NCBI RefSeq assembly: GCF_000003195.3
Contig: NC_012879.2
Span: 27,747,564-27,811,563, forward strand
Direction: 5' to 3'
DNA from: Sorghum bicolor
Lineage: Eukaryota; Streptophyta; Magnoliopsida; Poales; Poaceae
Length of the DNA stretch: 64,000 nucleotides
The position numbers and the translations under genes were made by a program. Under the pieces are notes generated by a model. It was not told the DNA's origin. It did no database searches and was given only the letters and a program-made list of their open reading frames with translations. Below are positions 6,877-64,000 of this stretch, one piece after another. Numbering within the stretch: the stretch's first letter is position 1; every line of letters begins with the position of its first letter.

Positions 6877-6879
6877 ATC

Positions 6880-43147: not shown

Positions 43148-43155
43148 GAAATGCT

Positions 43156-44541: not shown

Positions 44542-44559
44542 CATGTCCCCCAATTTCGG
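44542..44559 (-). promoter_or_regulatory. TAT1 polypurine tract
   Basis: The minus strand reads AAATTGGGGGACATG directly before the LTR start. TAT2 has the same at 56792-56809. Confidence 0.8.
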
Positions 44560-45204
44560 AGTATGAAATCATTAATGCTCCGAAATTCTCCGCAGTAATG
44601 ATGTCTTTCCGCAATTAATTCGCCCAATTTGGTAACCGACAACCTCAATCTGAATAACCCTGATCTAATCCTTCCGCAGATTCCTCGAAATTCTCAATGT
44701 CCCAAACGGACACCTCCACTTTAATCGCTCATCGGCAATATTACCGTTATAGGAACTTGCCGATGAACTGACCAGGACGTCCATTTCAGTAATGTATCTT
44801 ATCCTCCCAAACGGCCATCTCCACTTCATTCGCCCATCGGCAATATTACTGTTACAAGGCGCTGCCGATGGACCGACCAGGATATCCCGCATAGTAAAAT
44901 ATCTCTGGATAATGACCGCTTCCCGTCAAATCTCCTGTACAATCCCATGATTACCGTGCGAACAGTTACCGTATCTACCTGAATACCCTCAGATTTCACG
45001 GATATAGCGAAGAGATAAGTCAGATTTGCCCTTGCCCGTTTTGTCCTATAAATAGTTCCTTCTCGGGTACTCCTTCCCCATCACATCATTCCACAGCTCC
45101 AACTCCACTTTCCCGGCGGCGGCACTGTTCAAGAGCTCCAAGATCTCCAACGAAGCCCCTTCTTCACCAACTCCGAAGCCCTCGATCATCCTCTTCACGA
45201 CGGG
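44560..45204 (+). promoter_or_regulatory. Promoter region of the TAT1 antisense gene
   Basis: Two tandem units of about 105 bases (from about 44701 and 44806) each begin CCCAAACGG. Each contains the inverted pair CATCGGCA...TGCCGATG (44730-44737 with 44758-44765; 44835-44842 with 44863-44870) around an ATTACYGTTA core. A TATAAATAG box lies at 45047-45055, 150 bases before the first exon ATG. TAT2 has the same layout. The region faces away from gag-pol. Confidence 0.7.
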
Positions 45205-48200
45205 ATGGCCATCAACTTCACCGTCCCTGAGGTCAGTTCATCATCCCATCTCGTGTATTTTCGCCATATCCTGATTCATCTACAATTTATTTTACTGAGC
45301 ATTTTTTCTTTTCTCTTTTTATTCTTGTTCTTCCTTTTATACCCAAAACCATTAGAATCTGTCCAACAAAATTGTCATCCCCACAGATCAACCACACCTC
45401 CAATGTCTCGGTCCGTTAGGGAATCCAGATCCCATCGACTTCATCAACGCAGAAACAAATAGAATCCCATTTAGAGCCGAGAATTTTTCTCTGGATCTGT
45501 GGAAGGATACTTTCCGTTCCTGGCCCAGTCCTACCGTGGGATGGAAGGATTGGTTCTTGAGAGTTAGCCATTCAAACGAAGTCCAATGGGGTGAGAGAAA
45601 ACTGGACCAATGCATCAGGCTATCCATTGCCGATATGCATAGAAATGAGTCACTGCTGATAGCTGCATCGTATTTTTGGTCAGACACACTCGATGCCTTT
45701 ATGTTTGGCCATGGCCCTGCCTCCCCAACACTTGCCGATGTGGTCATGCTCACTGGCTTAGATGTATCCTCTGCCGATAGTACCCATTTTTTCAACACCA
45801 AACCCAGTGCTAAGGTAGAAACTCGTTCCATCGGCGGCTGGTCAGGGTATATTCAGAAATACCGTAGGACAGGGCCCGTCATCATAAAGGAACAAACCAC
45901 CTTTCTAAACATGTGGCTAGACAAATTCGTATTCTGTGGCCGATCGGCAGGACCGACTTCTATCTATCGGCAGTAGAGAGACTGGCTAACGGTGGCTGAT
46001 TTCCCCTCGGCCGATACTTGCTTGGTGCTGCCTACCATCTCCTCCACCAGGTAACCAAGAAACTCCTACTCGGCCAGTCCATCGGCAACTTGGGGGGTCC
46101 CTAGTGGTTTATCAATATGTGGCTCAGCCTCCACATGCACAAGCGCCTTGAGTTCGACCTCTTTGCACAGCGCTTCCCCAGAGATATAGCTGAGAACCAT
46201 GAACTAGAAGAAGAGGAATCGGCAACTCGCCCTCCCCTAAACTTCGGCGAGGCTGTCATAGTTCTACCTGGTACAGGGGGTAATGCAGACCAGGTCAGCC
46301 GATTCTTCCAAACCCTGTATGAAGGCTTGACCAGAGAAGAGCGAGCATGGTTGCCGTCTGACGATCCAGATACCACGTTCCCTTTAATCTTCCACCCGTT
46401 CAACGATGCCCTCAACAAGGATCATGAAGTGATGATGGCACTGATCACTCCCAGAGTTATACTAGTAAACTTCTTTTGTAGTGGGAAAACCTCCAGCCAA
46501 ACTTATGAGTTTTACAACCCATCGGCACTAGCCTGCCAATTAGCTTTCGGCCAGCTGCCGATTGCACTCTATTACGCCGATGTGAAAACCCAGGGAAGCC
46601 ATCACTAACCTCCTTGAATGGGTTCGAGTAGCCCAACTGCCATCAAGTGCCGATACAGACGCAGATTTGTCAGAGTGGGTTCTAGCCGCCTTCATCACTC
46701 AGTCGTATAAACAATGGTGGGCAGAATGGAAGGAGCACTTGTTCTGCAGATCGGCTCTTACGTACCGTGGCATGATCGACCCCGAGTATAAAGTCCCTGA
46801 TAATACTGTAAGCCTCTTCGAACCGATGCTTTAATTCTTTCAATTTTATTTCCATCAGTAACTTACTTCTGTATCACTTTGCAGGTCGACAACACCCCTC
46901 CATCAATCAGCAGGAGTGGCAAGCCGATTGACCTGTTCCCATCAGGTCCAATCTCTTCAATCGGCAACAACGCTCCCACCCTGGCCGCCATCATGCATCG
47001 AGGTGTACGCCTTAAGAAAGTTACCACCAGGAGAACTCAAATATCTCCATCGGTAGCTGCCTCTATCTTGGCACAGGCGTTCAAGGTATACTTTCACTTT
47101 TTATACCGATATCACTCTTATGTCTGTTGCACTTGCATTCACCAATCTTGCTTTCTGTATCAGCACACCAGCGCATCGGCAAGGACCAAAAGCAAAGGTG
47201 CCGATGCCCCCCAGTCCAGCCAGCAGAAGAGAAAAGGTGCCAAGAGTACCAGAGCACAAACAAAGCGCCAGAGAGTAGCAACTCTCTCTCCCCCTCCGGT
47301 ATCTCCAATTCCGGTGGAATCCTCTCCTTCTTCTCTAGAAACACAGACACGGCAAGTACCATCTCCCCCTCAACCGCAAGAAGCACCACAAGCGGAAGAA
47401 CTCTGACCAGAAGAGCCCCAACCAGAAGTATCTCAGCCAGAAGACACATTGGCTGATATAAGTGAGCAGACGACCGATCCAGCAGGCTCAATCATAGCAT
47501 CGGTAGTTTCCTCAATCCGGACAAGCTCTACACCTCCTCAAGGTACTACATCTTTACGAAGCCATCACCGATGAATCCTACTTTCCAGTTCTCATAATTC
47601 CTTCTGCCAATTTTCAGCTAACATAGTCCCATTGGCAACCCCGGCCGATCAGCCTATAGTTCCATCGGCATCTTCCAGTCAAAGGCGAGAGATTGCCTTG
47701 AAGCAAGTAAGCCATCCAATCTCCATCAATATTAATTGTCAATGCTTGACCATGGAATGACTCATTTTATCTCTTTTTCAGGAACAGGATTCTCCTGACA
47801 GCCTATTCTCCTTCGCTATCGACATCTCTGAAGATGAAGCCGAAGAAGCAAGCTCTTCTCGGGTAGTTGGGATTACATCGGCAGAAGTCAGGGCAAAGCT
47901 GGAAGAACTATCGGCTCTCCTCCACCAAGACACAGCCCAGCTAGTCGATGATTCCGATCCGGCCTAGGCTTTATTCAAGACTCTGAGAGGCCAAATCCCC
48001 GCCGATGCCGAAGAAGTCCTCTTCCAAGCAGCACACCTGGAGAGTCGTCAACTGCAGTACCAGAGGGCTGCCCAACGCCATGCCGATAGAGCCGCTCAGA
48101 CTCGTCTTTCTGAGGAGATGATGAAAGAAAAACTTCTTACCGATGAAAAGCATAAGATCATCGGCACCTTGATGTCCTCGGGGGATACACTGAAGCACAA

Positions 48201-48477
48201 AATCTCCGATCTGTCGGCCAAAAGGGAAGCCCTGTTGGCAGAACTTAAACAAGTAGAGGATGCCCTGTCCCAAGCCAGACAAGAAGAAAGCCAACTGCCG
48301 GAGACAATCAAGCTTCTTGAGCAAGACCGAAATGTCCATGGTCGCAAAGCACTGCAGTTGAAGAAGAAGTTGAAGCCGGTAGAAGGTTCTGCCGATGAAG
48401 ACGCCAAAGAGATAGAAACAGCCAACCAAATCCGCCTGCGTGCCATATCGGCCATCCAAGCGCTGCTAAACATGTGA
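45205..48477 (+). pseudogene. TAT1 antisense plant-mobile-domain gene, six exons, broken
   Basis: It is collinear with the intact TAT2 gene. Exons: 45205-45231, 45356-46807, 46885-47085, 47164-47542, 47618-47706 and 47782-48477. Exons 1, 3 and 5 have exactly the TAT2 lengths, and splice signals and phases are kept. Exon 2 carries a 4-base loss near 45965, stops near 46043 and 46102, and a frame change near 46583. Exon 4 has TGA near 47404 and exon 6 TAG near 47965. Mobile-domain signatures remain (GPASPTLADVVMLTGLDV, LNMWLDKFVFCGRSAGPT), as does the C-terminal coiled coil (KREALLAELKQVEDALSQ). Intron 3 here has a normal GT donor. Confidence 0.88.
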
Positions 48478-48538
48478 GCCCTTCATCGGCAACATGCTCG
48501 CCTCTCTCTGCTTTCCAGCTTCCTTGATGTTTAGTCTA

Positions 48539-48619
48539 GCCGATAGGACTGTTATCGGCATCTTTTGAAACATTAAGCCCTAGACACATCTCGATCCAGC
48601 CGATAGGAGTGTTATCGGC
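48539..48619. terminator. Twin hairpins between the convergent TAT1 genes
   Basis: GCCGATAG-(5 nt)-TTATCGGC at 48539-48559 and the same stem type at 48599-48619, 60 bases apart. They lie between the end of the antisense gene (48477) and the end of pol (48630). A role in 3'-end formation from both sides is inferred only from position. Confidence 0.5.
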
Positions 48620-48629
48620 ATTTAAACTT

Positions 48630-51600
48630 TTATGCATCGACCCATATGCTTGGGTAGTATCTCTTCAGATATTTGCCATTGAATGCTCTGGGAAATTCAA
48701 CTCCTTCGAGAGTTTCTAGAATATAGGCATTACCAGGAGCCGATCGACTTATCCGATAGGGACCCTCCCAATTGGGAGACCACTTCCCAAATTTTGAACT
48801 TTTAGTCCCGATCGGCAAGTTCAATTTCCATACCAAGTCTCCATCGGCAAACTCCTGAGCCTTCACTTTCTTATCATACCATCTAGCAACTCTCTTCTTA
48901 TTTTCTTCTATACTCATTAAAGCCTTTAGCCGATGTCCTGCTAGATCATCTAACTCATCTGTCATCAAAGTAGCATAATCATCGGCAGCCAATTGATCTT
49001 GAAAAGATAGTCACCTAGATCCAGTCTTAATTTCCCAAGGTAACACAGCATCATGTCCATACACCAACTGATAAGGTGAAACCTTGGTTGATCCATGACA
49101 AGCCATCCGATGGGACCATAAAGCTTCATTCAACAATGTGTGCCACCGTTTAGGATTTTCTTCAATTTTTCTTTTGATAAGCTTGATAATTCCTTTATTA
49201 GATGCCTCGGCCTGCCCATTAGCTTGAGCATAATAAGGAGAAGAGTTTAATACTTTAATTCCCATACTGATTGCGAATTCATCAAATTCCCCCGATGTGA
49301 ACATAGTACCCTGATCGGTAGTAATTGTCTGAGGAATCCCAAATTGGTAAATAATGTGCTCTTTCGCAAAATCAATCATATTAGCCGAAGTAACTTTCTT
49401 CAAAGGAATGGCCTCAACCCATTTGGTGAAATAATCGGTGGCAACCAAGATAAACTTTTGCCCTTTGCTAGATGGTGGATAAATCTGACCGATTAAGTCA
49501 ATAGCCTATCCCCGGAACGGCCAAGGTTTGATAATAGGATTCATGGCCGATGCGGGTGCTCTTTGAATATTGCCAAATTTCTGACATCCTTGACATCCCT
49601 TGAAATATTTAAAGCAATTTTCAAGTACGGTCGGCCAATAATACCCGTTCCTCCTAATCATCCACTTCATCTTAAAAGCCGACTGATGTGCTCCACATAC
49701 CCCTTCATGGATTTCTCCCATCAAACTCTTAGCTTCATCATCACCTAAGCATCGGAGAAGAATCCCATCAATAGTTCGATAATACAATTCATCTTTGAGG
49801 AGCACATACTTGGTGGCTTGAAATCGAACCCGTCTTTCGACTCTCTTAGATGGATCCTTTAAATAATCAACGATTTCCTTTCTCCAATCATCGGCATCAA
49901 TTGTCGATATTGTATTAATCATAGGCTGATATCCCAAGGCATGCTGAGCCAACCGATTGGCTTCTTCATTATGCAATCGAGGAACATGCTCTAATCGGAA
50001 ATCTTTGAATTCCTTTAACAGTTGGAGCTTCTTCATTATGCAATCGAGAACTTCACTTCGGCATTCATAGCTTCCAGCCAATTGATTTATAACTAGCATA
50101 GAATCCTCGAAAACCTCAACAGCATCAGCATGAACTTCTCTTAATAATTCCAATCCCTTTATTAAAGCTCGATATTCAGCCTGATTGTTCGTCGACGTGG
50201 CAACAATCGGCAAGGAGAACTCATACTTCCTTCCTTGAGGGGAAATTAACACTATACCGATTCCTGCCCCCCAGTCACACGTAGATCCATCGAAGAAAAG
50301 CGTCCAAGGTACAATTTCCAAAGCCTCCACTGTGCCGCAATGTTGAGTTACAAAATCGGCCATGATCTGCCCTTTAACTGCCTTAGCCGATTCATAACGC
50401 AGATCGAACTCCGACAGCGCCAAAATCCATTTACCGTTCCTGCCACTCATAATCGGCATGGATAGCATGTACTGGACCACATCATCCTTGCAAATAACAG
50501 TGCATTCAGCCGACAACAAGTAGTGCCTTAACTTGATACAAGAGAAATATAAGCACAAGCATAGTTTCTCAATAGCCGAATACCTGGTCTCAGCATCAAT
50601 CAACCTCCTGCTTAAGTAATAAATTACACGCTCTTTCCCTTCAAATTCTTGAATTAAAGCCGAACCGATGACCATCCCATCGGTAGACAAATACAATCTG
50701 AAGGGCTTCCCTTGCTGAGGTGGAATTAGAACTGGAGGATTCACTAAATAATTCTTGATTTCATCCAGAGCCAACTGTTGTTCCTTCCGCCAAACAAACT
50801 CTTGATCGACCTTTATCTTAAGAAGAGGACTGAAAGCACGAATTTTACCAGACAAATTAGATATAAACCTTCTGATAAAATTTACCTTGCCGATCAAGGA
50901 CTGGAGCTCGGTCTTGTTGGTAGGGGCCACCATCTTATTGATGGCATCAATAGATCTTCGACTGATTTCAATCCCCCTTTGGTGCACCATGAAACCAAGA
51001 AATTGTCCTGCCGATACACCAAATGCACACTTATTGGGATTTATTTTCAAACCATGCTTCCTTGTGCACTCCAACACCTTTCGTAAATCGGCAAGATGCT
51101 TTGTGAAGTCTCCAGATTTAACCACCACATCATCAATATAAATCTCCACCAGCTTGCCGATGAACTCATGAAATATAAAATTCATGGCCCTATGATAAGT
51201 AGCGCCAGTATTCTTTAAGCCAAAGGTCATGACTATCCATTCAAACAATCCAACATGACCAGGGCACCTGAACGCGGTCTTTGGAATATCCTCTTCAGCC
51301 ATGAATATTTGATTGTATCCTGCATTGCCATCCATAAAGCTAATAATCCGATGTCCAGCCGCAGCGTCAACTAGCAGATCGGCAACTGGCATTGGGTATC
51401 CATCCATCGGTGTAGCTTTGTTAAGATTCCTAAAATCAATGCAGACCTGAAGCTTCCCGTTCTTTTTGTAGACCGGAACAACATTGGAAATCCACTCGGC
51501 ATACCGACACTGCCGAATAAACTTGGCTTCAATAAGCTTGGTTATCTTGGTCTTAATATCACGGAGAATATTAGGATTACATCGGTGAGCCGGCTGCTGA

Positions 51601-52444
51601 TGTGGCCAAAATCCAGACTTGATAGGTAACCGATGTTCAACAATTGATCGGTCCAAACCAGGCATCTCAGTATAATCCCAAGCAAAGCAATCTTTATATT
51701 CCTTTAACAAATCAGTTAACTATTGCTTACACTCCGGATTTAACTTAGCATTAATAAAAGTAGGTCTAGGCTTATCACCACTACCTATATCTACTTCTAC
51801 TAAATCATCGGCCGATGTAAACCTCTGGCCTAACTTTCCATCATCGGGGAACCTGTCCATTAGAAACCTTCATCAGAACCGACTGCTTGGATCGGTGGAA
51901 TTTCATAATCGGCAACCTTGAGAAAATCCTTCTCCCAAGCTTCTCCTGAAATACACCTAGTCTTTTCATAGGTGTCTACCTCTGCCGATGCAATAACATA
52001 TGAAGAATCTCCTGGGACAATTTCAATCTTGTCACCTACCCACTGGACCAAGCACTGGTGCATTGTAGATGGGATGCAACAATTGGCATGAATCTAATCT
52101 CTCCCCAACAGTAAATTATATGCACCCTTTCCACTGATCACGAAGAAAGTTGTCGGCAAGGTTTTGTTGTCGATGGTCGACTCAACACATACTGCCCCCT
52201 TGACCGGAGACACGTTCCCTTCGAAGTGCTTTAACATCATATCGGTCTTGGTCAAATCCTGATCTCCTTTCCCAAGTTTCCGATACACTGCATAAGGCAT
52301 GATGTTAATAGCAGCTCCACCATCAATGAGAATCTTAGTCATTGGCTGACCATCCACTCTTCCTTTGACAAATAAAGCCTTAAGATGTTGTCTTTCATTG
52401 TCAGCAGGCTTCTCGAACATGGCGGTCATTGGATCCAGAGCCAA
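48630..52444 (-). pseudogene. TAT1 pol: protease, RT, two RNase H domains, integrase; broken
   Basis: Protease (52094-52444) has ILIDGGAAINIMPY and LLLGRD; DGG at the active site is usual in Tat elements, from memory. RT (about 51710-50900) has CIDFRNLNKATPMDGYPMP, MDGNAGYNQI and IYIDDVVVKS. RNase H 1 (LYLSTDGMVIGSAL) is followed by a second RNase H (LFFDGSTCDWGAGIGIV, STNNQAEYRALI), the Tat hallmark. Integrase has CQGCQKFGN, TDYFTKWVEA, TDQGTMF and QAEASNKGI. Stops at 52094, 51860, about 51718, 49506 and 49011 and a frameshift between 51860 and 51710 break it. Several stops are TGG or CGA codons changed by C-to-T or G-to-A. Confidence 0.9.
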
Positions 52445-55400
52445 CTAAGCTATTTGGTCGGAAAACTCTAGCTCATCAACACTAGACAGCACCAAGAATT
52501 CCATCGGCAACATAAATACCATGTTGACATCTGCCGATGGACCTTCCCCCTTGGGATCTGTTTGCTGCTGATCCCCAGACTGGCCAGAATTCTCGCCTTT
52601 GCTTAGCCCTTCTCGCCTTTCACGCTGTAGTCTTCTCTTTTGTGTTCTGGTCAACCCCTCTGGACACCAGGGAGGAAGTTGCTGCTGCCTTACCGATGGG
52701 CGACGATTTTCTCCTGACTCCATTTGGTAAGTATTGGCATCTCGGCAGAAGATGAACTCATCGGGAACCCGTGCATTAGCCATATCTTCGAGTTCTTCCT
52801 GGTTCCTGGGAAAATATTGAACACGATCGCCAAGCCTATCGTGCACGCTGAGCCTGCCCCCCAGCCGATCGTGAACGGACGCTCTTCCTCTAATCGGCCC
52901 ATTAGATCGCCGATTGTCGTCGTGATAGCGCCGATCGGATCTATCATACCGATCATAACCGTTGCACTCAGGGCGATCTCTGACAGTGGGAAGCTTAATA
53001 TTCTCCTCCCAACAATGAATGAAGAACGGGCAATTCCAGTGATCTCTGTGCCGATTCCACTCTTGCCGGCGCCTTTCTTCCTCCCGATGGTATTCTTCCT
53101 GCCGGCGCTGATATCGGTCCTCACGTTGCTGCCAAGTTTCCCGAGGCCTTCTGTGAGTTATTACAATACCAGATCGGGGAGGCCTTCCCGAGTTGGCTCC
53201 TTCCTGGATTAAGCCTCTTCCCTTGGCACCGGCAGTAGTGATCTGATGCTGAGGATCCACCGATGCACTTCTTTCAGCTGCTTCCAATGTCAAGACCTTG
53301 GTCTTTCCCTTAGCATCTAGCATGTTTGTTGGGAAAGGGTGTTGATCAATTTTCATCGGCATCTGAGTTTTGGAGCTGTCAAATTTGATCCTCCCAGATT
53401 CTATAGCCGATTGCAGCTGCTGTCTAAAAACTTTACACTCATTAGTGTCGTGAGAAGTAGCATTGTGCCACTTGCAATACTTCATCCTTTTTAATTCTTT
53501 AGCCGATGGGATCACATGATTAGGTGACAGCTTGATCTGACCTTCCTGGAGCAGAAAGTCAAATATCCTATCAGCCTTGGTGGTGTCGAACGCGAACTTC
53601 TCTGGTTCTTTATGTCCAAAAGGCCAAGACATTGGCTTTTTATTTTTTACCCATTCTGCCAAGCCGATGACTGGTTCTTCATCAGAGTCCGAGCTTGCCG
53701 CTTCATCCACAAATGATACCTTTTTATTCCATGCTCTCTTGGGTTCAAACGGCTTGATGTCTTGATCAGAAATTCTCTGCACCAAATGACTTAAGCTTTC
53801 AAACTCCTGAGATGCATATTTGTCCCTTATGTGCGGCAACAAACCCTGGAAAGCCAAATCAGCTAGCTGCCGATCATCCAGAACCAAGCTATAGCATTGG
53901 TTCTTGACCTCCCGTATCCTCTGCACAAAACTTTCAACCGATTCGTCATTGCGCTGCCTCAATTTGACCAAATCGGTGATCTTCTTCTCATAGACACCAG
54001 AAAAGAAGTATTTGTGGAATTGCTTCTCTAGATCGGCCCATGTAACCACTAAGTTGGGAGGTAATGATATAAACCAGGTAAAAGCTGATCCAGATAATGA
54101 TGACGAGAATAAACGAACCCTCAATTCGTCCCTGTTAGCAGCTTCTCCGCACTGGATGATGAACCTATTGACATGCTCCATGGTTGACGTGTATCCTGCC
54201 CACAAAACTTAGTAAAATCCGGTACCTTGTACCAATTTGGAAGCGGGATCAAATCATATGCGGGAGGATATGGTGTCCGATAAGAGTAAGTGTTGACTTT
54301 GGGTTTTATCCCAAATTGGTCTCTCATTACTTCATCAATCTTATCGGCCCAATAAGCATCGGCATCTTGCGGATGAGGTGGTTGCGGATCCGGCACCTGC
54401 TGGTAAGCTTCCACGTGTCTGTGCGGCGCACGATCTGCATGAAACATTGGGTTAATCATTTGGCCCGCAATCTGCGGACGACCAAGCTGTTGCCCGCCAA
54501 TCTGCTGTCCGCCGACCTGCTGCCCAAGATTCTTTGGCTGGTTAGGCATCCCCTGATTCTGAAACCCGGGATAGATCTGGCCTTGCTAGAACCCTATAGC
54601 CTGATGACTCTGTTGGGGTGTTTGCGGAAAGACTTGCTGCCCAAGCCATCCACTATTAGCATTCATCGGCATAGGTCCTGCCCATGACTGGTAATTGGGC
54701 ATGATCGTCGAATTGACATACCCTGGTTGAGTAATAAATCTCTGTTGCATCAGCATCGAGTCTGCCGATGCGTTAGGCACCTGAAACATTGGAGCTTGAG
54801 AATTCCCAGTGTAAGGTCTTGCAGTAGTAGTCGTAGTATATTGGGGACTCTGGTTCATCGGCATATTTGGAGGTGCCGATGCCATAGGAGTCTTGCCTCT
54901 CATATCAGTTGCCTGAGATGTGCCAGGTGTCTTCAAGTATTCCGGGGGCATACCATAACCCCACCAGTTGGGAGGAGGGACCGGTCCTGACATTGCCGAT
55001 ACCAATAGATCTATAGTGAGCCTAATCTGCTCATCTGAAGTCGGTGGATTGGTCGTCATCGGCGTAGATTGTGCATTGGTGACTCCCAACGTGCTTGGAG
55101 GAACGGTAGTCTGTGTTCCCACAGCGGCTGTGGTAGCCGATGGAGCTATGACCACCGGTGACCCTGGCTGATGATGAGAGGGACCCACATAATCTGGTGG
55201 CAATTGTCCTTCCTTGAAGGTTCTGGCCACGGCATTGAAAACCGTATTGGACAGCACACCAGCTTGGTTGATTAAAGTGCGGTTGATAGCACTATCAACC
55301 ATCTCTTGAAGTTTACCAGGATTGGCTTCAAAAGTAACCTGCCGAGGCGTCGGCAGTGCATCCTTCTGGATCACTTCGCCGCTCCTGTTTATGCTAAAGG

Positions 55401-55521
55401 ATCTCAGGCACTGCTGCTTGTAATCCTCCATGGCTTTAGCAATAGCTTGCTTCTGCTCATCCTTGAGATTAGCTTCCGTCACGAGGATGACGTTCTCCTG
55501 ATCAAACTCAGTAGTCGACAT
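52445..55521 (-). pseudogene. gag: TAT1 gag, broken
   Basis: The start is at 55521 (MSTTEFDQENVILV), just inside the primer site. The N-terminal half is rich in Pro, Gln, Met and Thr. The capsid region (FTWFISLPPNLVVTWADLEKQF, VKLRQRNDESVESFVQR) lies near 54200-53800. A C-x-W-H-x-x-x-H-x-x-x-x-C-like motif (CKWHNATSHDTNEC) is followed by a long Arg/Glu/Asp-rich stretch with tandem VHDRLGGR/VHDRLGDR units. TAG at 54586, a frame change near 54200 and TAG at 52445 break the gene. It would have been one long Gag fused to protease. Confidence 0.87.
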
Positions 55522-55543
55522 GTTGATCTTGATCTTGAATCTG

Positions 55544-55560
55544 CCCCACTGTGCGTGCCA
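55544..55560 (-). promoter_or_regulatory. TAT1 primer binding site, tRNA not assigned
   Basis: The minus strand reads TGGCACGCACAGTGGGG, seven bases after the 5' LTR. The TGG start fits a tRNA CCA end. I could not assign the tRNA with confidence; it would need comparison with a full tRNA set. Confidence 0.6.
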
Positions 55561-55567
55561 AAAGATG

Positions 55568-56098
55568 TGTTGATGCAAAAGCTGATCTGCAAACACAAAG
55601 GGCTAATACCCGATTTAAACGTTAAGGCGTGCTAGCCGATTTGACCTTACTATCGACAAGGATGATAACTCGAATACTTTGGTTCGGACAACAGCTATGC
55701 GCCCGGATGCCACGGCCAAGAGGTATTCACGCGGAACTTGAGAATACGTCGAGCTTAAGTCGACGAACTCCTAAGAACTCGTATTAAAAGGAAAAAGTAT
55801 GACGAAGTCGTCGAAAAAGTAGGTACTGGAATATGAGTAAAAACTTGTGTTTGATTGATTGATCGATTCTTTCATTACAAGGCCCTAGGGTCTACATTTA
55901 TACCCTGCTCAAAGAGCTACAACCAGACACGACTAGAATTCGAATTCCAAATTTAAACAGAATCCGTGTACAAAACGACTTAAATAACTAAGGAAAACAT
56001 AAAACTATCCTGCCGCAACAAACTAGGACACTTCTACCAATCAATCGGCAACCTTCAGGCTCTCCTTCCGCATCATCGGCAGACCTCCTTATCGTAAC
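55568..56098 (-). repeat. TAT1 5' LTR, truncated by TAT2
   Basis: It matches 35808-36340 closely. A TATAAATG box lies at 55895-55902 on the minus strand. It breaks off after TATCGTAAC, where the TAT2 LTR starts. GTAAC is the candidate left target duplication; the rest of the LTR should follow TAT2 outside the window. Confidence 0.9.
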
Positions 56099-56791
56099 TG
56101 TTGATGCGAAATTGATCTGCAAACACAAAGGGCTAATACCCAATTCAAACGTTAAGGCGTGCCAGCCGATTTGACCCTACTATCGGCAAAGGTGATAACT
56201 CGAATACTTTAGTCCTGACAACAGCGATGCGCCCGGATGTCACGGCTAAGAGGTACTCACGCGGAACTCGAGAATACGCCGAGCTTAAGTCGACGAATTC
56301 CTAAGAACTCGTAATAAGAAAGAAAAAGGGTGACGAAGTCGTCGAAAAGTAAACGCTGGAATATGAGTAAAACGTATGTTTGATTGATTTCTTGATAGAT
56401 GATCTGATTACAAGGTCTTAGGGCTTATATTTATACCCTGCCCAAAGAGCTACGACCAGACACGATTAGAATTCGAATTCTAAATTACACGGAACCCGTA
56501 TACAAAACGATACGAATAACATAAGGAAACAATAAAACCATCCTTCGTGACAAACCGGAACTCCTCCACATGACAACTGGCAGCTTCCGGACTCTTCCTT
56601 TGCGTCATCGGCAATTCCCTTGCCATAGTCATCGGCAGACCCTTTTACTTGGTCATCGGCATCATATTACTGTTTGAGGACTTAGTCATACTCAACCTTT
56701 CCCTCATCGGCAACCATCCTTACCAGCAACCCGCATCGTACTGCCACCCTGTCCTGCCATCCTGGACACGTGCCCAAAAATGGTGTCAACA
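56099..56791 (-). repeat. TAT2 3' LTR (693 bp)
   Basis: It begins TGTTGATGC and ends GTGTCAACA. A minus-strand TATA box (TATAAATATAAG) lies at about 56425-56436. It contains several ATCGGC motifs. The purine tract follows at 56792-56809. Confidence 0.92.
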
Positions 56792-56809
56792 CATGCCCCC
56801 CAGTTTCGG

Positions 56810-57430
56810 AGTATAAAACTATTAATGCTCCGAAATTCTCTGCAGTAATGATGTCCTTTCCGCAATTAATGCTCCTAATCTGGTAACCGACAACCTCAAT
56901 CTGGGCAACCCTGATCCTAATCCTCCGCAGATCTCTCGAAATCCACAACTTCCCAAACGGGCATCTCTCCTAATCGTACATCGGCAACAATACCGTTACA
57001 ACAATCTGCCGATGCTCTGCCCAGGATGTCCGCAAAAACGGTCACTTCCCCTCTATCCGCCCATCGGCAAGATGACCGTTATAGAACATTACCGATGGAC
57101 CGACCAAAAGATCATACACAGTAAAATATCTTTAGATAATGACCGCTTCCCGTCAAATCACCTGCACAATCCCTGGATTATCGTGCGAACAGTTACCATA
57201 TCTACTCGAGTACCTCGGGTTTCTCGGATGTGGCAAAGAAATAAGTCAGATTTGCCCCTGTCCATCTTGCCCTATAAATAGCTCCTTCTTGGGTACTCCT
57301 TTCCCACTACACCATCCTGCCATCCAACTTTACTTTTCCAGCGGCGGCGCCCTTCTCAACCCTCAAGATCTCCGACAAGCATCCTTCTTCGTCAACTCCG
57401 GCGTCTTCCAGCGCCCACCTTCACGACAAG
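56810..57430 (+). promoter_or_regulatory. Promoter region of the TAT2 antisense gene
   Basis: The TATAAATAG box lies at 57273-57281, 150 bases before the ATG. Upstream are two tandem units containing CATCGGCA...TGCCGATG (56979-56986 with 57007-57014; 57062-57069 with a changed partner at 57090-57097) around an ACCGTTA core. The arrangement equals that of TAT1. Confidence 0.72.
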
Positions 57431-60400
57431 ATGGCCGTCGGTTTCATCGTCCCCGAGGTCAGACTTTCATCTCATCCATTGTACCTTTTTCCTGCATTCC
57501 TGTTCATCTGCAATTTACCTTACCGAATATTTTCCTTCCCCCTTTTTCTTTGTATTTTTATTCCCCAAAACACCAGGAATTATCCAACAAAATTGTCATC
57601 CCTACCGATCAACCGCATCTTCAGTGTCTCGGCCCCCTAGGGGATCCAGATCCAACCGACCTCATCAACGCAGAAACCAACAGGATTCCCTTTAGAGCTG
57701 AAAACTTTACTCTAGATCTATGGAAAGACACCTTTCGTTCTTGGCCTAGCCCTACTGTAGGATGGAAAGACTGGTTCTTGAGGGTCAGCAACTCTTATGA
57801 AATTCAATGGGGTGAGAGGAAATTAGCTCAATGCATCAGGCTGTCCATTGCCGATATGCACAGAAACGAGTCGTTGCTGATAGCCGCATCTTACTTCTGG
57901 TCAGATACTCTCAACGCTTTTGTTTTCGGCCACGGCCCTGCTTCTCCTACCCTTGCCGATGTAGCCATGCTCACTGGGTTAGACATATCTTCTGCCGATA
58001 GCACCCACTTTTTCGATACCGCCCCCAGCGCCAAAGTGGAGACTCGCGCTATCGGCGGCTGGTCAGGGTACATCCAGAAGTACCGCGGGAAAGGACCTGT
58101 CACCCTAAAGGAACAAACCACTTTTCTGAACATGTGGCTAGACAAGTTCGTATTCTGTGGTCGATCGGCAGGACCGACTTCTGTCTACCTATCGGCAGCA
58201 GAAAGGTTGGCTAGCGGTGGTCAATTTCCTCTCGGCCGCTATCTGCTCGGCGCTGTTTATCACCTCCTTCATCAGGTAGCCCAAAAACTCCTACTCGGCC
58301 AACCTATCGGCAACTTGGGAGGTCCTTGGTGGTTTATCAATATGTGGCTCAATCTGCACCTGCACAAACGCCTTGATCTCAACTTGTTCTCTCAGCATTT
58401 CCCAAGAGATATAGCCGAGAACCATGTGTTGGGCGAAGAGGAATCGGCAACACGTGCCCCCCTGAACTTCGGCGAAGCCGTTATAGTTTTACCCGGTTCA
58501 GGGAACGCTCCGGATCAGATCGGCCGATTCTTCGAAACGCTGTATGAGGGTCTGGCCAGAGATGAACGACCGTGGCTAGCTTATGACGACCCAGACAGCA
58601 TGCTCCCTCTGACCTTCAATCCATTCGACGACGCTCTTGATAGGGACAATGAGGTGATGATGGCAATCGTGACTCCCAGAGCCATACCAGTGAACTTCTT
58701 CGGCAGCACAAAAACCTCTCCCCAAACCTATGAATTCTACAACCCATCGGCATTAGCTCGCCAGCTGGCTTTCGGCCAATTGCCGATCGCACTTCCTTAT
58801 GCCGATGTAATAAAGCCCAGAGAACCCATTGCTAACCTCCTCGAGTGGACCCGAGTAGCCCAGTTACCACCAAATGCCGATACAGATGTAGATCTATCAG
58901 AATGGGTTCCAGCTGCCTTTATCACTCAAGCATACAAGCTATGGTGGGCAGAATGGAAGGAGAATTTATTCTGCAGATCGGCTCTCTCATACCGCGGCAT
59001 GATCGACTCCGAATATGAAGTTCCTGACGACATTGTAAGTGCTTTGAACCGATGTCTCATTTTCCAATACTATTCTCATTGATAATTTACCCCCGTATTC
59101 TTTTTGCAGATTGATAACATCCCCCCATCGGTCAGCAGGAGTGGCAAGCCGATCGACTTATTCCCATCAGGCCCGATCTCCTCAATCGGCCACAATGCTC
59201 CCACTCTGGCCTCCATCGTACATCGGGGTGCGCGTCTCAAGAAGGTTACTACCAGGAAAACTCAGACATCTCCACCGGTAACTGCTTCCACTCTGGCGCA
59301 AGCTTTCAAGGCAATCTGTTTAAAACCCCTTTTTATTTATGCTGACTTATCTTTATATCGGTTGTCTGTGCTTATAAACTCTTTATTGTTGTTGCAGCAA
59401 ACTGGTACATCGGCAAAAGCCAAACGTCAAGGTGCCGATCTCCCCCAGTCTAGCCAGCCAAAGAGGAAAGGCGTCCAAGGCGTCAAGACTGGACCAAAGC
59501 GTCAGAAAGTGGCAACTTCTCCTCCTCCTCCGGTGTTTCCAACCCCGGTGGGATCTTCTCCTTCCCCTCCAGGAGCCCAAGCACAGCAAGGAACATCTCC
59601 TCAATCAATACAGGAAGCACTACAGACCGAAGAACCTCAGCAAGAAGTACCTCGAACAGCAGGCGCATTATCTGACGTAGGCGAACAAACAACTGGCCCG
59701 GCAGGTCCAGTTATATCATCGGCGGTCTCCTCAATCCAAACAACTGTTGTTCCAATTCCGGGTAACATATCCCAACAATACTCCTACCGATAAACTTATC
59801 TTCATTTCTTCTTATAACCCTTCCTGTCTTCTTTCAGGCGATATCATTCTATCGGCAACATCCGCCGATCAACCTGCAGCTCTATCGGCCTCTCTGAGTC
59901 AAAGGCAGGAAATTGCCCTGAAGCAAGTAAGTCATCCACCTTTCAATCGGTATCATCCGCTGATGTCTTGACCATAAAATTGACTTATTTCATCTTCAGG
60001 AACAAGATTCTCCCGACAGCTTATTTTCCTTCGCCATTGATATCTTTGAAGAAGAGGGCGAGGAAGCAAGCTCTTCTCAGGCAGTTGGAATCGTATCGGC
60101 AGAAACCAAAGCTAGGCTGGAGGAGTTGTCGGCCATACTTCATCAAGACACAACCCAACTGGTCGATGATTCCGACCCAGCCAAAGCTCTGTTCAAGACC
60201 CTTAGAGGCCAAATCCCTGCCGATGCCGAGGAAGCACTCTTCCACGCCGCACATCTAGAAAGCCGGCAGTTACAGTACCAGAGAGCTACCCGGCGCCTTG
60301 CCGACAGAGCTGCTCAAGTCCAACTTTCTGAGGAGATGGCAAAAGAAAAACTCTTAGCCGATGAGAAACATAAGAGCATCGGCATCTTAAAGTCCTCAGG

Positions 60401-60695
60401 TGACGCACTGAAGCAGAAAATGTCCGATCTATCGGCCAAAAGAGAAGCTCTGCTGGCTGAACTCAAGCAAGTGGAAGACGCCCTGTCCCAAGCCCAACAG
60501 GAAGATAGTCAGCTGCCGGAGGCCATCAAGCATCTTGAACAGGAACGAAACATCCATGGTCGTAAAGCGCTGCAACTGAAGAGGAAGCTGAAGCCAATTG
60601 AAGGTTCTGCCGACGATGATATCAAAGAGATAGAGACAGCCAATCAGATCCGGCTGCGCGCCATATCGGCAATCCAAGCGCTGCTGAACATCTGA
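57431..60695 (+). CDS. TAT2 antisense plant-mobile-domain and coiled-coil protein, six exons, intact
   Basis: Predicted exons 57431-57457, 57577-59034, 59110-59310, 59398-59761, 59838-59926 and 60000-60695 give 2835 bases, or 944 residues, without a stop. Introns are 73-119 bases. All have GT-AG ends except intron 3, which starts GC. Residues about 20-430 resemble the aminotransferase-like plant mobile domain (GPASPTLADVAMLTGLDI, WLDKFVFCGRSAGPT, WWFINMWLNLHL). Residues about 582-600 are a bipartite-type nuclear signal (PKRKGVQGVKTGPKRQK), followed by a Pro/Gln-rich stretch. Residues about 730-930 are a long coiled coil (KREALLAELKQVEDALSQ). The gene runs against gag-pol, so its introns are not removed from the element's RNA genome. 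Extra antisense ORFs are known in Tat elements; the function here is unknown. Confidence 0.85.
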
Positions 60696-60746
60696 AGCTT
60701 TTATCGGCAACACACCTTTTTCTTCCTGCTTTTGGCTTTTAGTCTA

Positions 60747-60830
60747 GCCGATAAGACTGTTATCGGCGTTTTTTGAAACATTAAGTCTGCCCTCAAACAT
60801 TTAAATCCAGCCGATAGGAGTGTTATCGGC
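60747..60830. terminator. Twin hairpins between the convergent TAT2 genes
   Basis: GCCGATAA-(5 nt)-TTATCGGC at 60747-60767 is a perfect 8-bp stem. GCCGATA-(7 nt)-TATCGGC lies at 60810-60830. They lie 52 bases after the antisense gene and 10 bases before the pol stop. TAT1 has the same pair. Confidence 0.5.
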
Positions 60831-60839
60831 ACTTAACTT

Positions 60840-63800
60840 TTATGCATCGATCCATATGCTGGGGTAGTACTTTTTTAAATATTTGCCATTCAATGCTCTG
60901 GGAAATTCAACTCCTTCGAGAGTTTCTAGAATATAGGCGTTGCCAGGAGCCGAGTGCCTTATCCGATAAGGACCTTCCCAATTAGGAGACCACTTCCCAA
61001 ACTTTGAACTTTTAGTCCCGACTGGCAAAATCAACTTCCATACCAAATCCCCATCGGCAAACTCCTTAGCCTTCACCTTTTTATCATACCATCTGGCAAC
61101 TCTCTTCTTATTCTCTTCTATACTCATTAAAGCCTTTAACCGATGCCCTGCTAAATCATCTAACTCATCGGTCATTAAAGTGGCATAATCATCGGCAGCC
61201 AATTGATCTTGAAAAGATAATCGCCTAGATCCAGCCTTAATCTCCCAAGGCAAAACTGCATCATGTCCATACACCAACTGATAAGGTGACACCTTGGTTG
61301 ATCCATGACAAGCCATCCGATAAGACCACAGTGCTTCATTTAACAATGTATGCCACCGCCTAGGATTTTCTTCAATCTTTCGTTTAATAAGCTTGATAAT
61401 TCCCTTGTTAGACGCTTCGGCCTGCCCATTGGCTTGAGCATAGTAAGGAGAAGAATTCAACACTTTAATTCCCATACTGATTGCAAATTCATCGAACTCC
61501 CCCGACGTGAACATGGTGCCCTGATCGGTAGTAATCGTTTGGGGAATCCCAAATCGGTAAACAATGTGCTCCTTCACAAAATCAATTATATTGGCCGATG
61601 TGACTTTCTTCAAAGGAATAGCTTCGACCCACTTGGTGAAATAGTCAGTGGCAACTAGAATGAATTTATGCCCTTTGCTAGACGGTGGATAAATCTGGCC
61701 GATCAGATCGATAGCCCATCCCCGGAACGGCCAGGGTTTTATTATAGGATTCATAGCCGATGCGGGTGCTCTCTGGATATTACCGAACTTTTGACAACTT
61801 TGACATCCCTTGAAATATTTAAAACAATCTTCAAGTATGGTTGGCCAAAAATATCCATTCCTTCGAATCATCCACTTCATCTTAAAAGCTGATTGATGCG
61901 CTCCACACACTCCTTCATGGATTTCCCCCATCAAACTTCTGGCTTCATCATCACCCAAGCATCGGAGAAGAATTCCGTCGATAGTCCGATAATACAATTC
62001 ATTTTCAAGGATCACATACTTGGTTGCCTGAAATCGGACCCGTCTTTCAACCTTTTTGGATGGATCTTTTAGATAATCAATAATTTCTTCCCTCCAATCA
62101 CCGGCAGTGACTGCCGATGTTGCATTAATCATTGGCTGATATCCCGAGGCATGCTGGGCTAACCGATTAGCGTCTTCATTATGCAATCGGGGAATATGCT
62201 CCAATCGGAAGTTCTTGAATTCCTTCAACAGTTGCATACTTCTCTCGAAATAGGTTATGAGAACCTCACTTCGGCACTCATAGCTTCCAGCCAATTGATT
62301 TATAACCAACATGGAATCTCCGAATACTTCAACAGCATCAGCGCGAACTTCTCTTAGCAACTCCAATCCCTTGATCAGAGCTTGATACTCAGCCTGATTA
62401 TTTGTTGATGTAGCAACAATCGGCAAGGAAAATTCATACTTCCTCCCCCTAGGAGAAACTAACACAATGCCGATTCCTGCTCCCCGATCACAAGTAGATC
62501 CATCAAAGAAGAGCGTCCAGGGTGCAACTTCCAAGGTTTCCACTAGGCCGCAATGTTGAGTCACAAAATCAGCCATAACCTGCCCTTTGACCGCCTTAAC
62601 CGATTCGTAACGCAAATCGAATTCCGACAGCGCTAAAATCCATTTACCGATCCTACCACTCATAATCGGCATAGATAGCATGTATCGGACCACGTCATCT
62701 TTGCAAACAACAGCACATTCGGCCGACAACAGATAATGTCTCAGCTTGATACATGAGAAGTATAAGCACAAGCACAGCTTCTCTATGGCCGAATACCTGG
62801 TTTCAGCATCAATCAACCTCCTGCTCAAATAATAAATTACTCTCTCCTTCCCTTCAAATTCTTGAACTAAAGCTGAACCGATAACCGATCCATCGGTAGA
62901 CAAATACAATTTGAAGGGTTTCCCTTGTTGGGGTGGAACTAAAACTGGAGGATTCACTAGATATTTTTTGATCTCATCCAGAGCCAACTGCTGTTCTTCT
63001 CCCCAAACAAACTCCTGATCGGCTTTCAATTTAAGAAGGGGACTGAAAGCACGAATCCTCCCAGATAAATTCGATATAAATCTTCTGATAAAATTCACCT
63101 TGCCAATCAAGGATTGGAGCTCAGTTTTATTGGTAGGGGCCACTATTTTATTGATGGCATCAATAGACCTTCGACTAATCTCAATACCCCTCTGATGTAC
63201 CATAAAACCAAGAAACTGCCCCGCCGATACGCCAAATGCACACTTGTTGGGATTCATCTTTAATCCATGCTTCCTGGTGCACTCCAACACTTTTCGTAAA
63301 TCGGCAAGATGCTTTGAGAAATCTCCAGACTTAATCACCACATCATCAATATAAATTTCTACGATTTTGCCGATGAACTCATGAAATATGAAGTTCATAG
63401 CCCTTTGATAAGTAGCACCAGCATTCTTTAACCCAAAAGTCATGACTATCCATTCAAACAATCCAACATGACCAGGACACCTGAATGCGGTTTTTGGAAT
63501 ATCCTCTTCTGCCATGAATATTTGATTGTAACCCGCATTACCATCCATGAAGCTGATGACCCGATGGCCAGCCGCAGCATCAACCAGTAGATCGGCGACA
63601 GGCATTGGATATCCATCCATCGGCGTAGCTTTATTGAGATTCCTGAAATCAATGCACACCCGAAGCTTCCCGTTCTTCTTGTAAACCGGGACGACATTAG
63701 AAATCCATTCGGCATATCGACATTGCCGAATAAACTTAGCTTCAATAAGTTTAGTGATTTCGGCCTTAATATCAGGTAGAATATTAGGATTACATCGGCG

Positions 63801-63998
63801 GGCTGGTTGCTGATGTGGCCGAAATCCAGACTTGATGGGTAACCGATGTTCAACAATCGATCGGTCTAAACCAGGCATCTCTGTATAATCCCAAGCAAAG
63901 CAATCTTTATATTCCTTTAACAAACTAATTAATTGCCGTTTACACTCAGGATCTAGTCTAGCGCTAATAAAAGTAGGCCTAGGCTTATCACCACTACC
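60840..63998 (-). CDS. pol: TAT2 pol: RT, two RNase H domains, integrase; open, 5' end outside window
   Basis: The frame is open for 1052 codons to the window edge. RT has CIDFRNLNKATPMDGYPMP, MDGNAGYNQI, FGLKNAGATYQRAM and the active-site IYIDDVVIKS. RNase H 1 (LYLSTDGSVIGSAL) and the second, Tat-type RNase H (LFFDGSTCDRGAGIGIV, STNNQAEYQALI, and HNEDANRLAQ) follow. Integrase has the zinc motif (H-H then CQSCQKFGN), the core Asp in WAIDLIGQIYP, Asp in TTDQGTMF and Glu in QAEASNKGI, and a C-terminal GPY-type region (NWEGPYRIRHS). All catalytic residues are present. Protease and gag lie beyond the window. Confidence 0.93.
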   Translation of the reverse strand, partial: GSGDKPRPTFISARLDPECKRQLISLLKEYKDCFAWDYTEMPGLDRSIVEHRLPIKSGFRPHQQPARRCNPNILPDIKAEITKLIEAKFIRQCRYAEWISNVVPVYKKNGKLRVCIDFRNLNKATPMDGYPMPVADLLVDAAAGHRVISFMDGNAGYNQIFMAEEDIPKTAFRCPGHVGLFEWIVMTFGLKNAGATYQRAMNFIFHEFIGKIVEIYIDDVVIKSGDFSKHLADLRKVLECTRKHGLKMNPNKCAFGVSAGQFLGFMVHQRGIEISRRSIDAINKIVAPTNKTELQSLIGKVNFIRRFISNLSGRIRAFSPLLKLKADQEFVWGEEQQLALDEIKKYLVNPPVLVPPQQGKPFKLYLSTDGSVIGSALVQEFEGKERVIYYLSRRLIDAETRYSAIEKLCLCLYFSCIKLRHYLLSAECAVVCKDDVVRYMLSMPIMSGRIGKWILALSEFDLRYESVKAVKGQVMADFVTQHCGLVETLEVAPWTLFFDGSTCDRGAGIGIVLVSPRGRKYEFSLPIVATSTNNQAEYQALIKGLELLREVRADAVEVFGDSMLVINQLAGSYECRSEVLITYFERSMQLLKEFKNFRLEHIPRLHNEDANRLAQHASGYQPMINATSAVTAGDWREEIIDYLKDPSKKVERRVRFQATKYVILENELYYRTIDGILLRCLGDDEARSLMGEIHEGVCGAHQSAFKMKWMIRRNGYFWPTILEDCFKYFKGCQSCQKFGNIQRAPASAMNPIIKPWPFRGWAIDLIGQIYPPSSKGHKFILVATDYFTKWVEAIPLKKVTSANIIDFVKEHIVYRFGIPQTITTDQGTMFTSGEFDEFAISMGIKVLNSSPYYAQANGQAEASNKGIIKLIKRKIEENPRRWHTLLNEALWSYRMACHGSTKVSPYQLVYGHDAVLPWEIKAGSRRLSFQDQLAADDYATLMTDELDDLAGHRLKALMSIEENKKRVARWYDKKVKAKEFADGDLVWKLILPVGTKSSKFGKWSPNWEGPYRIRHSAPGNAYILETLEGVEFPRALNGKYLKKYYPSIWIDA

Positions 63999-64000
63999 TA

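Follow-up and report, generated by a model that had tools for sequence, protein, structure and literature searches.

The hexamer ATCGGC saturates two Tat-lineage retrotransposons of Sorghum bicolor and may be a recognition word for an element-encoded protein

INTRODUCTION

The window analysed here is a stretch of 64,000 nt from Sorghum bicolor (NC_012879.2, positions 27,747,564-27,811,563, forward strand) that contains two related LTR retrotransposons, TAT1 and TAT2. An earlier note on this DNA claimed that both are saturated by the hexamer ATCGGC or its complement GCCGAT, and proposed as its reader an element-encoded factor analogous to VANC. In the available parts of the sources, VANDAL/VANC is described as an anti-silencing system that serves Mu-like DNA transposons in Arabidopsis (PMC5735166, PMC10398659), and its motifs are placed chiefly in tandem repeats outside coding sequence (PMC5735166). 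A search of the retrotransposon literature for ATCGGC returned no paper about the word among the matches listed. The locus raises the question of why so short a word recurs throughout a mobile element, and what reads it.

RESULTS

Layout and lineage of TAT1 and TAT2

The features of both elements are given in Table 1. The sense strand of TAT2 is the minus strand, and its 3' LTR carries six copies of the word, three of them at a 24-bp spacing. Over 531 bp, the 5' LTR of TAT1 was 97.6% identical to the first part of the other LTR of this element (35808-36338); that other LTR is interrupted by ATH4 (36382-44391). TAT1 and TAT2 exhibited 81% identity over 7.3 kb aligned. Pfam matches to RVT_1, RT_RNaseH and rve were obtained in TAT2 pol and to Retrotrans_gag in TAT1; RVT_3 (residues 498-617 of TAT2 pol) sits between RT_RNaseH (359-460) and Integrase_H2C2 (685-738). 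A further gene (PF10536, plus strand) runs opposite to pol, between pol and the 3' LTR. Judged from their sequence features, TAT1 and TAT2 are Tat-lineage Ty3/gypsy elements, i.e. gag-pol lies between LTRs, an extra RNase H-like domain is present and the antisense gene encodes a plant mobile domain (PMD).

The available parts of papers on Tat/Retand/RIRE2-type elements (PMC11963269, PMC7264820, PMC6317226) describe the same combination of Ty3/gypsy affiliation, second RNase H-like domain, long region between pol and the 3' LTR, and antisense gene, whose domain is either a PMD, as in TAT2, or TRP28. These parts call the function of the antisense ORFs unknown and mention neither an element-saturating word nor a VANC-like antisense fold. 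A first look at the genome gave 8,382 candidates, unconfirmed, for the PMD protein P0097 and 4,325 for TRP28; Tat elements seem to be very abundant in it.

Table 1. Features of TAT1 and TAT2 in the window
Feature	Position	Strand	Remarks
TAT2, visible part	56098..64000		Runs off window end; 59 copies of ATCGGC/GCCGAT
TAT2 3' LTR	56099..56791	-	Ends TGTTGATG...TGTCAACA and LTR similarity
TAT2 antisense gene, exon 1	57431..57457	+	Start codon, 9 codons; GT donor at 57458; inferred gene model, from sequence
TAT2 antisense gene, exon 2	57577..59034	+	PMD (PF10536), predicted VANC21-like fold
TAT2 antisense gene, exon 3	59110..59310	+	GC donor after; frame and splice signals
TAT2 antisense gene, exon 4	59398..59761	+	Low-complexity, Lys/Arg-rich NLS-like stretch; frame
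TAT2 antisense gene, exon 5	59838..59926	+	Frame and splice signals
TAT2 antisense gene, exon 6	60000..60695	+	C-terminus, stop 60693-60695; ORF
Two inverted GCCGAT/ATCGGC pairs	60747..60830 (60747-60767 and 60810-60830)	.	Between convergent antisense gene and pol; same layout in TAT1
TAT2 pol	60840..63998	-	RT, RNase H, second RNase H-like domain, integrase; open at window edge
TAT1, main part	44400..56097		Organised like TAT2; 84 copies of the word
TAT1 antisense gene region	45221..48480	+	Limits approximate; frames broken
TAT1 pol	48633..51785	-	tblastn 91% to TAT2 pol
TAT1 gag	52448..54208	-	13 copies as compared to 2.1 in codon-preserving null
TAT1 5' LTR	55568..56098	-	Abuts TAT2

Abundance and distribution of the word

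The earlier note had put TAT2 at about 60 copies with about 4 expected and TAT1 as equally rich, and both statements held on counting (36 ATCGGC and 23 GCCGAT in TAT2; 42 of each in TAT1). Dinucleotide frequencies predict 3.8 and 5.0 copies in TAT2 and TAT1, respectively, and a second-order Markov model, which contains the motif itself, 7.9 and 10.8. In 500 dinucleotide shuffles the means were 3.79 and 4.72 with a maximum of 13 for each element. In the actual sequences the word was the commonest hexamer of both elements. Five other stretches of the window contained 1, 2, 1, 1 and 3 copies; the three lie in the ATH4 stretch, of which two (36340 and 36363) precede the first base of ATH4, leaving this element with the single copy claimed for it. 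Among 20 random genome loci, 18 had 0-4 copies and the others, with 18 and 20, both hold Tat pieces; 16 random loci contained 32 copies in 155.7 kb (0.21/kb) as compared to 7.2-7.5/kb in Tat. The idea that Ty3/gypsy elements at large, or this region, are rich in the word was rejected, as neither the other window elements nor the control segments were enriched and three loci with less similar gypsy pol, described below, lacked such a word.

The copies were spread over LTR, spacers, antisense gene, pol and gag, as had been claimed, with densities by part of 4.7-34.7 per kb. Coding copies occurred in sense and antisense and in several frames, mainly as the Ile-Gly, Ser-Ala, Ala-Asp and Pro-Ile already listed in the note, and also as Pro-Met. 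The motif is sharp, with C-ATCGGC-A-R as a fuller form. Both strands were used equally and spacing was random.

A signal in element transcripts (packaging, splicing, export or RNA silencing) is very unlikely to explain this distribution. LTR retrotransposons do have RNA signals, and a long stem can arise from the inverted pairs that separate the convergent genes: the RNA of 60747..60830 is predicted to fold into a single stem joining both pairs, with a z of -3.0 that was matched by 1 of 200 shuffles. Orientation use was nevertheless similar even within TAT2 pol (9 and 7) and its antisense gene (17 and 12), and no pairing or spacing was preferred; an RNA signal was rejected on these grounds.

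Selection on the word

Whether codon usage, amino-acid usage or base composition could yield the word as a by-product was examined using a codon-preserving null. Over ten in-frame Tat segments 85 copies were observed as compared to 18.6 in the null (TAT2 exon 3 was left out of these sums, and the exon 2 segment used in computations, 57568-59034, is nine bases too long). Nine of the ten exceeded the null, which reached the observed count in 0-2 of 1000 shuffles, and the tenth, a 492-bp TAT1 integrase piece, had no copies with a null of 0.03. Five control segments had 2 copies as compared to 1.9. The motif excess thus stayed in the test that the earlier note had named as a potential refutation, and unrelated elements and random loci, named likewise, showed no similar enrichment. 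Ser-Ala, Ala-Asp and Ile-Gly are indeed common in homologues, in a dipeptide test that is confounded by homology. The codon-preserving and Markov nulls, the dinucleotide shuffles, the non-coding copies, the use of both strands and the lack of richness in other window elements all contradict this by-product reading, which was rejected and is hardly credible.

Synonymous sites favoured the word. In Tat coding sequence 41-68% of synonymously possible places were filled as compared to 0-14% in controls; TAT2 pol, with 16 copies, reached 43%, and six reading frames together had 68 of 139 sites occupied. Such filling of about half the possible sites is an unusually strong trace of DNA-level selection inside protein-coding genes. 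Between TAT1 and TAT2, 41 of 54 motif sites were unchanged, as compared to 29% for other CpG hexamers, and synonymous codons within the motif were kept.

It is highly improbable that the word has no function and was multiplied by a drive in mutation or recombination (slippage, template switching, biased repair or gene conversion). Some copies do lie in short repeats, sharing flanks with another instance in the same element (8 of 83 and 6 of 59 as compared to 0.8 and 0.5 expected). The flanks of the remaining instances are unrelated, and duplication was rejected as the main source. Sites that differ between TAT1 and TAT2 were mostly one substitution from the motif (12 of 13 and 11 of 12), CpG decay was much rarer within the word and synonymous codons were held, so that a drive is already largely contradicted. 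Saturation, synonymous-site filling, use of both strands, random spacing and TAT1/TAT2 conservation therefore support selection on double-stranded DNA and not on protein, codon use or RNA, in agreement with the selection or bias on DNA that the earlier note had argued for. Judged from proteins, including 115 rice-type proteins that are related to each other, the motif may be old in grasses.

Words at other loci

Loci found by the word itself (L001-L020) represent about five insertions. Three loci with less similar gypsy pol (L036, L032 and L024) had no such word. In five PMD loci of other kinds (L041-L045) the ATCGGC counts were 0, 0, 1, 0 and 1, none of these loci had a word that rose above random-locus level, and a general property of PMD-bearing loci was rejected. 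Two Tat-like or TRP28-bearing loci, L039 and L048, have CGACCA in common and are inferred to be of one lineage; blastn found no DNA stretch common to them. In L039, TATATA and ATATAT both had higher raw scores than CGACCA. In L048, which is 2.4 kb long and the only TRP28 copy chosen as such, 11 of the 15 copies lie in one 70-bp tandem array, and CGACCA fell outside the top ten hexamers when the array copies were collapsed. L026 gave CCTCGA in a TCGA-rich locus, where the word is not sharp. In these few loci the words are ATCGGC in PMD-Tat, CGACCA in L039/L048 and CCTCGA, less sharp, in L026; because L048 carries TRP28, a word alone does not point to a PMD.

These data bear on whether a host transcription or chromatin factor, exploited by the element, reads the word while the antisense protein does something else. 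We regard this as unlikely. With 8.6/kb the TAT2 LTR is rich in the word, yet not richer than the antisense gene (8.9/kb), and the VANC-like fold of the antisense protein is a prediction, which leaves room for such a factor. Filling of pol and gag would, however, not be expected of an ordinary enhancer site, few copies of the word lie outside the Tat family, and other Tat-like loci have other words.

The antisense gene and its protein

The PMD of the antisense protein is predicted to fold like VANC21 in its solved complex with target DNA, at 9% identity and a Foldseek E of only 0.034 on a predicted model. No VANC link by sequence profile was found when solved structures were searched with one protein and then with a 59-row profile. 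VANC21 was absent from a fold search with an 827-residue Miscanthus model, where its absence says little. TAT2 exon 2 matched only PMD, and neither DUF1985 nor DUF287, at E up to 10; for the other 58 profile members the domain search covers the best 25 of 39 families. The protein thus appears VANC21-like in predicted fold and not in DUF1985/DUF287 sequence. The counterpart of exon 4 in the Miscanthus homologue is modelled at low confidence and is probably disordered, and that of the exon 6 C-terminus has long coiled-coil-like helices in the predicted model. No paper joining DUF1985 and the PMD was found; the VANC21 structure paper, outside the literature covered, may already note the link. Scans of viral and genome contigs for relatives led nowhere.

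DISCUSSION

A self-recognition system as the proposed explanation

The chances appear about even that a Tat-lineage family of LTR retrotransposons has a system of self-recognition with ATCGGC as its recognition word. The antisense gene, which lies between pol and the 3' LTR, would encode a nuclear protein, whose PMD would provide a VANC-like DNA-binding fold with CATCGGCA as a candidate target sequence (exon 2) and whose C-terminus may dimerise. This protein would bind the word in double-stranded DNA along the entire element and might plausibly protect the copies of its own family against silencing by the host, the role that VANC has for VANDAL. Copies denser in the word would transpose more, and on this proposal the word therefore fills about half of the places that the element's proteins tolerate. 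That the antisense protein is the binder is fairly probable; anti-silencing as the outcome is more tentative and falls a little short of an even chance. The element-encoded reader of the earlier note gains from the predicted VANC21 fold and from the different word at two other Tat-like/TRP28 loci. Its VANC analogy is partly borne out by that fold and partly weakened, as the motif is dispersed in coding sequence and may be old, while VANC motifs diverge fast.

Several observations stand against the explanation. In the available parts of the papers, MAIN and MAIL1, the best-studied PMD proteins, promote silencing (PMC5418596, PMC7156037) and most VANC motifs are located in repeats outside coding sequence (PMC5735166), unlike ATCGGC. 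The loci L041-L045 have PMDs with neither ATCGGC enrichment nor a word of their own, and the fold match is predicted, at the identity and E-value given above, with no sequence-profile link.

Alternatively, the word may be read at the cDNA stage, with Gag, integrase or the antisense protein binding double-stranded cDNA to protect it, bring it into the nucleus or integrate it, and with family cDNA recognised as self in the manner of DNA uptake sequences. Reading of cDNA would account for the random spacing, the use of both strands, the disregard for coding sequence and the element-wide spread; it also predicts that each family has its own word, which seems to be the case. It is rather unlikely, given the predicted VANC-like fold in the antisense protein, the role of VANC on chromatin in the available descriptions, and no sign of the antisense protein entering particles.

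Sequence-specific anti-silencing, or self-recognition, could be general and ancient in Tat LTR retrotransposons, with the antisense protein of each lineage (PMD in one, probably TRP28 in another) reading its own hexamer, selected into about half of the tolerable coding positions, and with PMD and VANC forming one fold family, so that the PMD factors with which the host silences would be related to the anti-silencing factors of transposons. The balance leans slightly against this generalisation. The word and the antisense protein are a likely ligand and a likely protein, so the role of a long-unknown antisense gene becomes testable. If PMD and VANC share fold and job, host MAIN/MAIL1 and transposon anti-silencing factors would be relatives, and anti-silencing would reach beyond DNA transposons to LTR retrotransposons.

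Comparison with known systems

MAIN/MAIL1 and the 'DOWN' promoter motif resemble the Tat system, as PMD proteins are tied to transposon silencing and a DNA motif; they differ in being host proteins that support silencing, and direct DNA binding is not described in the available parts of PMC7156037 and PMC5418596. As far as the available VANDAL/VANC descriptions extend, both systems concentrate a short family-specific motif in their own copies and encode an extra protein (with a predicted VANC21 fold in Tat). Motifs differ among VANDAL families and may do so in Tat, to judge from ATCGGC, CGACCA and the less sharp CCTCGA at the few loci covered. In contrast, VANDAL is a MULE and Tat an LTR retrotransposon, known here from its sequence alone; the Tat protein is a PMD and not a DUF1985/DUF287 recognisable by sequence; and most TAT2 copies lie in genes, on both strands, with few common flanks, and not in non-coding tandem repeats. 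The CGACCA-bearing array of L048 does have this VANC-like trait.

DNA uptake sequences of Neisseria and Pasteurellaceae serve bacterial transformation. Like the Tat word they are short, occur on both strands and within coding sequence, are spread over the genome and mark self DNA; they occur about once per kb, as compared to seven per kb in Tat.

Organisation of the Tat elements

The two Tat-lineage LTR retrotransposon copies, TAT1 and TAT2, are organised alike and are 81% identical over the 7.3 kb that align. Between pol and the tabulated LTR, TAT2 carries a plus-strand antisense gene, predicted from ORFs and splice signals to comprise six exons and 944 codons, with a plant mobile domain (PMD; PF10536, 58 bits) in exon 2. 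Its third intron opens with GC, not GT (59311), and GT is apparently present at the matching position of the TAT1 frame. The TAT1 LTR stretches share 97.6% identity over 531 bp and the LTRs of ATH4, another LTR element, 98.5% over 1,236 bp.

Positions of the elements and their parts in the window
Feature	Position	Strand	Remarks
TAT2	from 56099, runs past window end	sense = minus	
TAT2 pol	60840-63998	-	RT, RNase H, second RNase H-like domain, integrase
TAT2 LTR	56099-56791		
ATH4	36382-44391		nested inside one TAT1 LTR

Abundance and form of the word

TAT2 had been claimed in an earlier note to be saturated with the hexamer ATCGGC/GCCGAT, TAT1 to be similarly rich and other elements of the window to be poor in it. 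Counts on both strands bore this out, with 59 copies in TAT2 and 84 in TAT1 as compared to 3.8 and 4.7 in dinucleotide shuffles (maximum 13 for each), and 1-3 copies in the other stretches counted. ATH4, a control from the same place, has a single copy (42235). Scarcity extended to the genome (709 Mb, 846 contigs), as 18 of 20 loci of 10 kb chosen at random (N making up 4.3 kb of one of the 20) held 0-4 copies. The remaining two (i.e. L028 and L030, with 18 and 20 copies) contain Tat pieces: all 18 copies of L028 lie at 64-2364, within a piece at 1-2437, and 19 of those in L030 at 5160-7311, within a piece at 5114-7386, the other being at 7986. Leaving out these two, L026 and L039, 16 random loci contained 32 copies in 155.7 kb. 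A spaced word pair gave 15,364 genome matches versus 40 for the reversed pattern. Among 84 five-kb windows from the random loci and the window, scored on distinct flanks only, the top ten hexamer scores were all ATCGGC in Tat DNA.

ATCGGC is a sharp double-stranded DNA word. Among its 18 one-mismatch neighbours only ATCGGT was clearly raised (46 versus 15.7), the CpG-decay products ATTGGC and ATCAGC numbering 23 versus 17.4 and 25 versus 15.4. The word is preferentially preceded by C (63/143) and followed by A (88/143), then A or G (101/143), and occurs in both orientations (78:65, P = 0.32). Gaps between words were consistent with random placement (CV 1.08 and 1.05 versus 0.98), and no preferred spacing was found in the gap analysis of both elements. 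Words sharing flanks with another in the same element numbered 8/83 and 6/59 (0.8 and 0.5 by chance). Two inverted ATCGGC pairs lie at 60747-60830, in the gap separating the convergent antisense gene from pol in TAT2, with matching pairs in TAT1 within 48470-48660; these may represent a shared transcription end or a putative paired binding site.

Selection on DNA

The word is maintained by selection acting on DNA; the earlier note had proposed selection or bias on DNA rather than on protein. Under a codon-preserving null (i.e. shuffling of synonymous codons), ten in-frame Tat segments, one lacking any word, contained 85 copies versus 18.6, and five control segments 2 versus 1.9. ATCGGC ranked first of all hexamers under this null in TAT2 (37 versus 7.7) and TAT1 (31 versus 6.7). 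Synonymous sites also favoured the word: of the places where synonymous codons could spell it without changing the amino acids, 16/37, 15/22, 6/12, 11/27, 13/27 and 7/14 are occupied in Tat frames, and 1/17, 0/9, 0/11, 0/4 and 1/7 in control frames.

Between TAT1 and TAT2, 41/54 words were intact. The proportion was lower both for the remaining NNCGNN hexamers (58/203, P = 4e-10) and for CG-containing permutations (70/154, P = 1e-4); CpGs were kept in 51/55 cases inside the word versus 124/212 elsewhere (P = 4e-7). Codons with their third base in a word were identical in 192 of 205 comparisons, which span 13 CDS-by-copy pairs and are not independent. For the 191 having the same codon outside words as a control, 179 were identical versus 120.2 expected (TAT1 alone, 59/65 versus 38.4). 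In exon 2, four copies have 19 word sites in union, 12 being common to all.

Spread through the family and possible age in grasses

The word is family-wide. ATCGGC was the top-scoring hexamer in four loci located independently of it, two found by protein (L046 and L047) and two random (L028 and L030). Four others, L009-L012, whose identity to TAT1/TAT2 is mostly 69-79%, also contain it beyond the stretch used to find them.

Comparison across species used proteins only: for each protein, all 2,080 hexamers were ranked by the number of places at which its sequence could accommodate them. ATCGGC came first for the TAT2 antisense protein, third for gag and eighth for pol; in three control proteins its ranks were 1098, 1184 and 1656. 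A Miscanthus homologue placed it second, two Panicum proteins at 1 and 4, and eight Oryza proteins at 1, 1, 2, 2, 12, 16, 39 and 52. Among scored non-rice homologues, 36/41 ranked it within 93; the elements of five outlying PMD homologues (P0110, 188; P0104, 196; P0072, 339; P0116, 358; P0113, 920) may use another word. The median rank in 115 rice-type proteins was 8 (top 20 in 85), and in their less conserved tails (89) 103 (top 20 in 16; pooled rank 6). These ranks, inflated by shared ancestry, hint that the word predates the sorghum-rice split.

Candidate words at other loci

Other Tat-like loci appear to carry other words. Random loci L039 and L026 were taken as other Tat lineages because their pol is closer to that of TAT2 (34% identity, E 1e-165; 37%, E 1e-139) than is that of other gypsy loci, and L026 has a distant relative of the ORF for TRP28, the alternative antisense-gene domain. 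Among non-ATCGGC scores in the five-kb windows L026 came first, L039 tying with several loci at about 5.7. The 6.0 kb of L039 contain 25 copies of the fairly sharp CGACCA, as compared to a background of 0.26/kb; this word ranks third in the raw list, behind a TA run, and first under the codon-preserving null (20 versus 6.9). Looked for subsequently in L048 (C1:628500-630900), a locus picked solely for its TRP28 domain and showing no similarity to L039 at the DNA level, CGACCA had 15 copies in 2.4 kb. Eleven lie in a 70-bp tandem array and four in the antisense ORF (null 1.07, reached by 15 of 1000 shuffles); the word was absent from the ten highest L048 hexamers once array copies were collapsed. 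The array (L048:1682-2074) adjoins the TRP28 ORF, nearly every unit having two opposite-strand copies. In Retand elements, too, the family-specific tandem repeats may be arrays of motifs.

CCTCGA in L026 (54 versus 19.2 expected) is less clear because of its TCGA-rich setting, and may represent a third family word in more degenerate form. This GC-rich Tat-like element (C3:40000001-40010000) also has raised GCTCGA and CGTCGA. CGACCA and CCTCGA occur at 0.1-0.6/kb in TAT1, TAT2 and ATH4.

PMD open frames were also seen in L041, L042 and L043, adjoining in the latter two an open frame that by eye resembles a MULE transposase end. L041 has a mild ACGCCG/CGCCGA excess (9 and 8 distinct-flank copies versus 1.1).

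Comparison with known systems

PMDs are described in 57% of Ogre elements (PMC6317226) and in Gypsy consensus sequences from ten plant species (PMC9289625), PMD-A clades being encoded by Gypsy only (PMC5418596). Sections of two papers present Tat antisense proteins as without known function, TRP28 as predicted to bind DNA, and the tandem repeats of the antisense region as family-specific and of unknown function (PMC11963269; PMC7264820). Any role of LTR-lineage ORFs in shaping methylation is left open in part of a 2026 sunflower paper (PMC12844716). A saturating word and a predicted VANC-like fold make it the simplest account that Tat antisense proteins are putative VANC-like readers of family-specific words. 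The outcome of such reading may be anti-silencing, recognition of cDNA or control of transcription, sequence alone being compatible with each.

VANC-DNA structures, unpublished, are mentioned as shown at a 2025 meeting (PMC12859917). Arabidopsis VANC21 is reported to bind a nine-base motif enriched in VANDAL21, with methylation loss spanning the element, and VANC6 targets to carry other motifs (PMC5735166; PMC10398659). The VANC21 motif lies mainly in non-coding tandem repeats, whereas Tat words occur throughout coding sequence.
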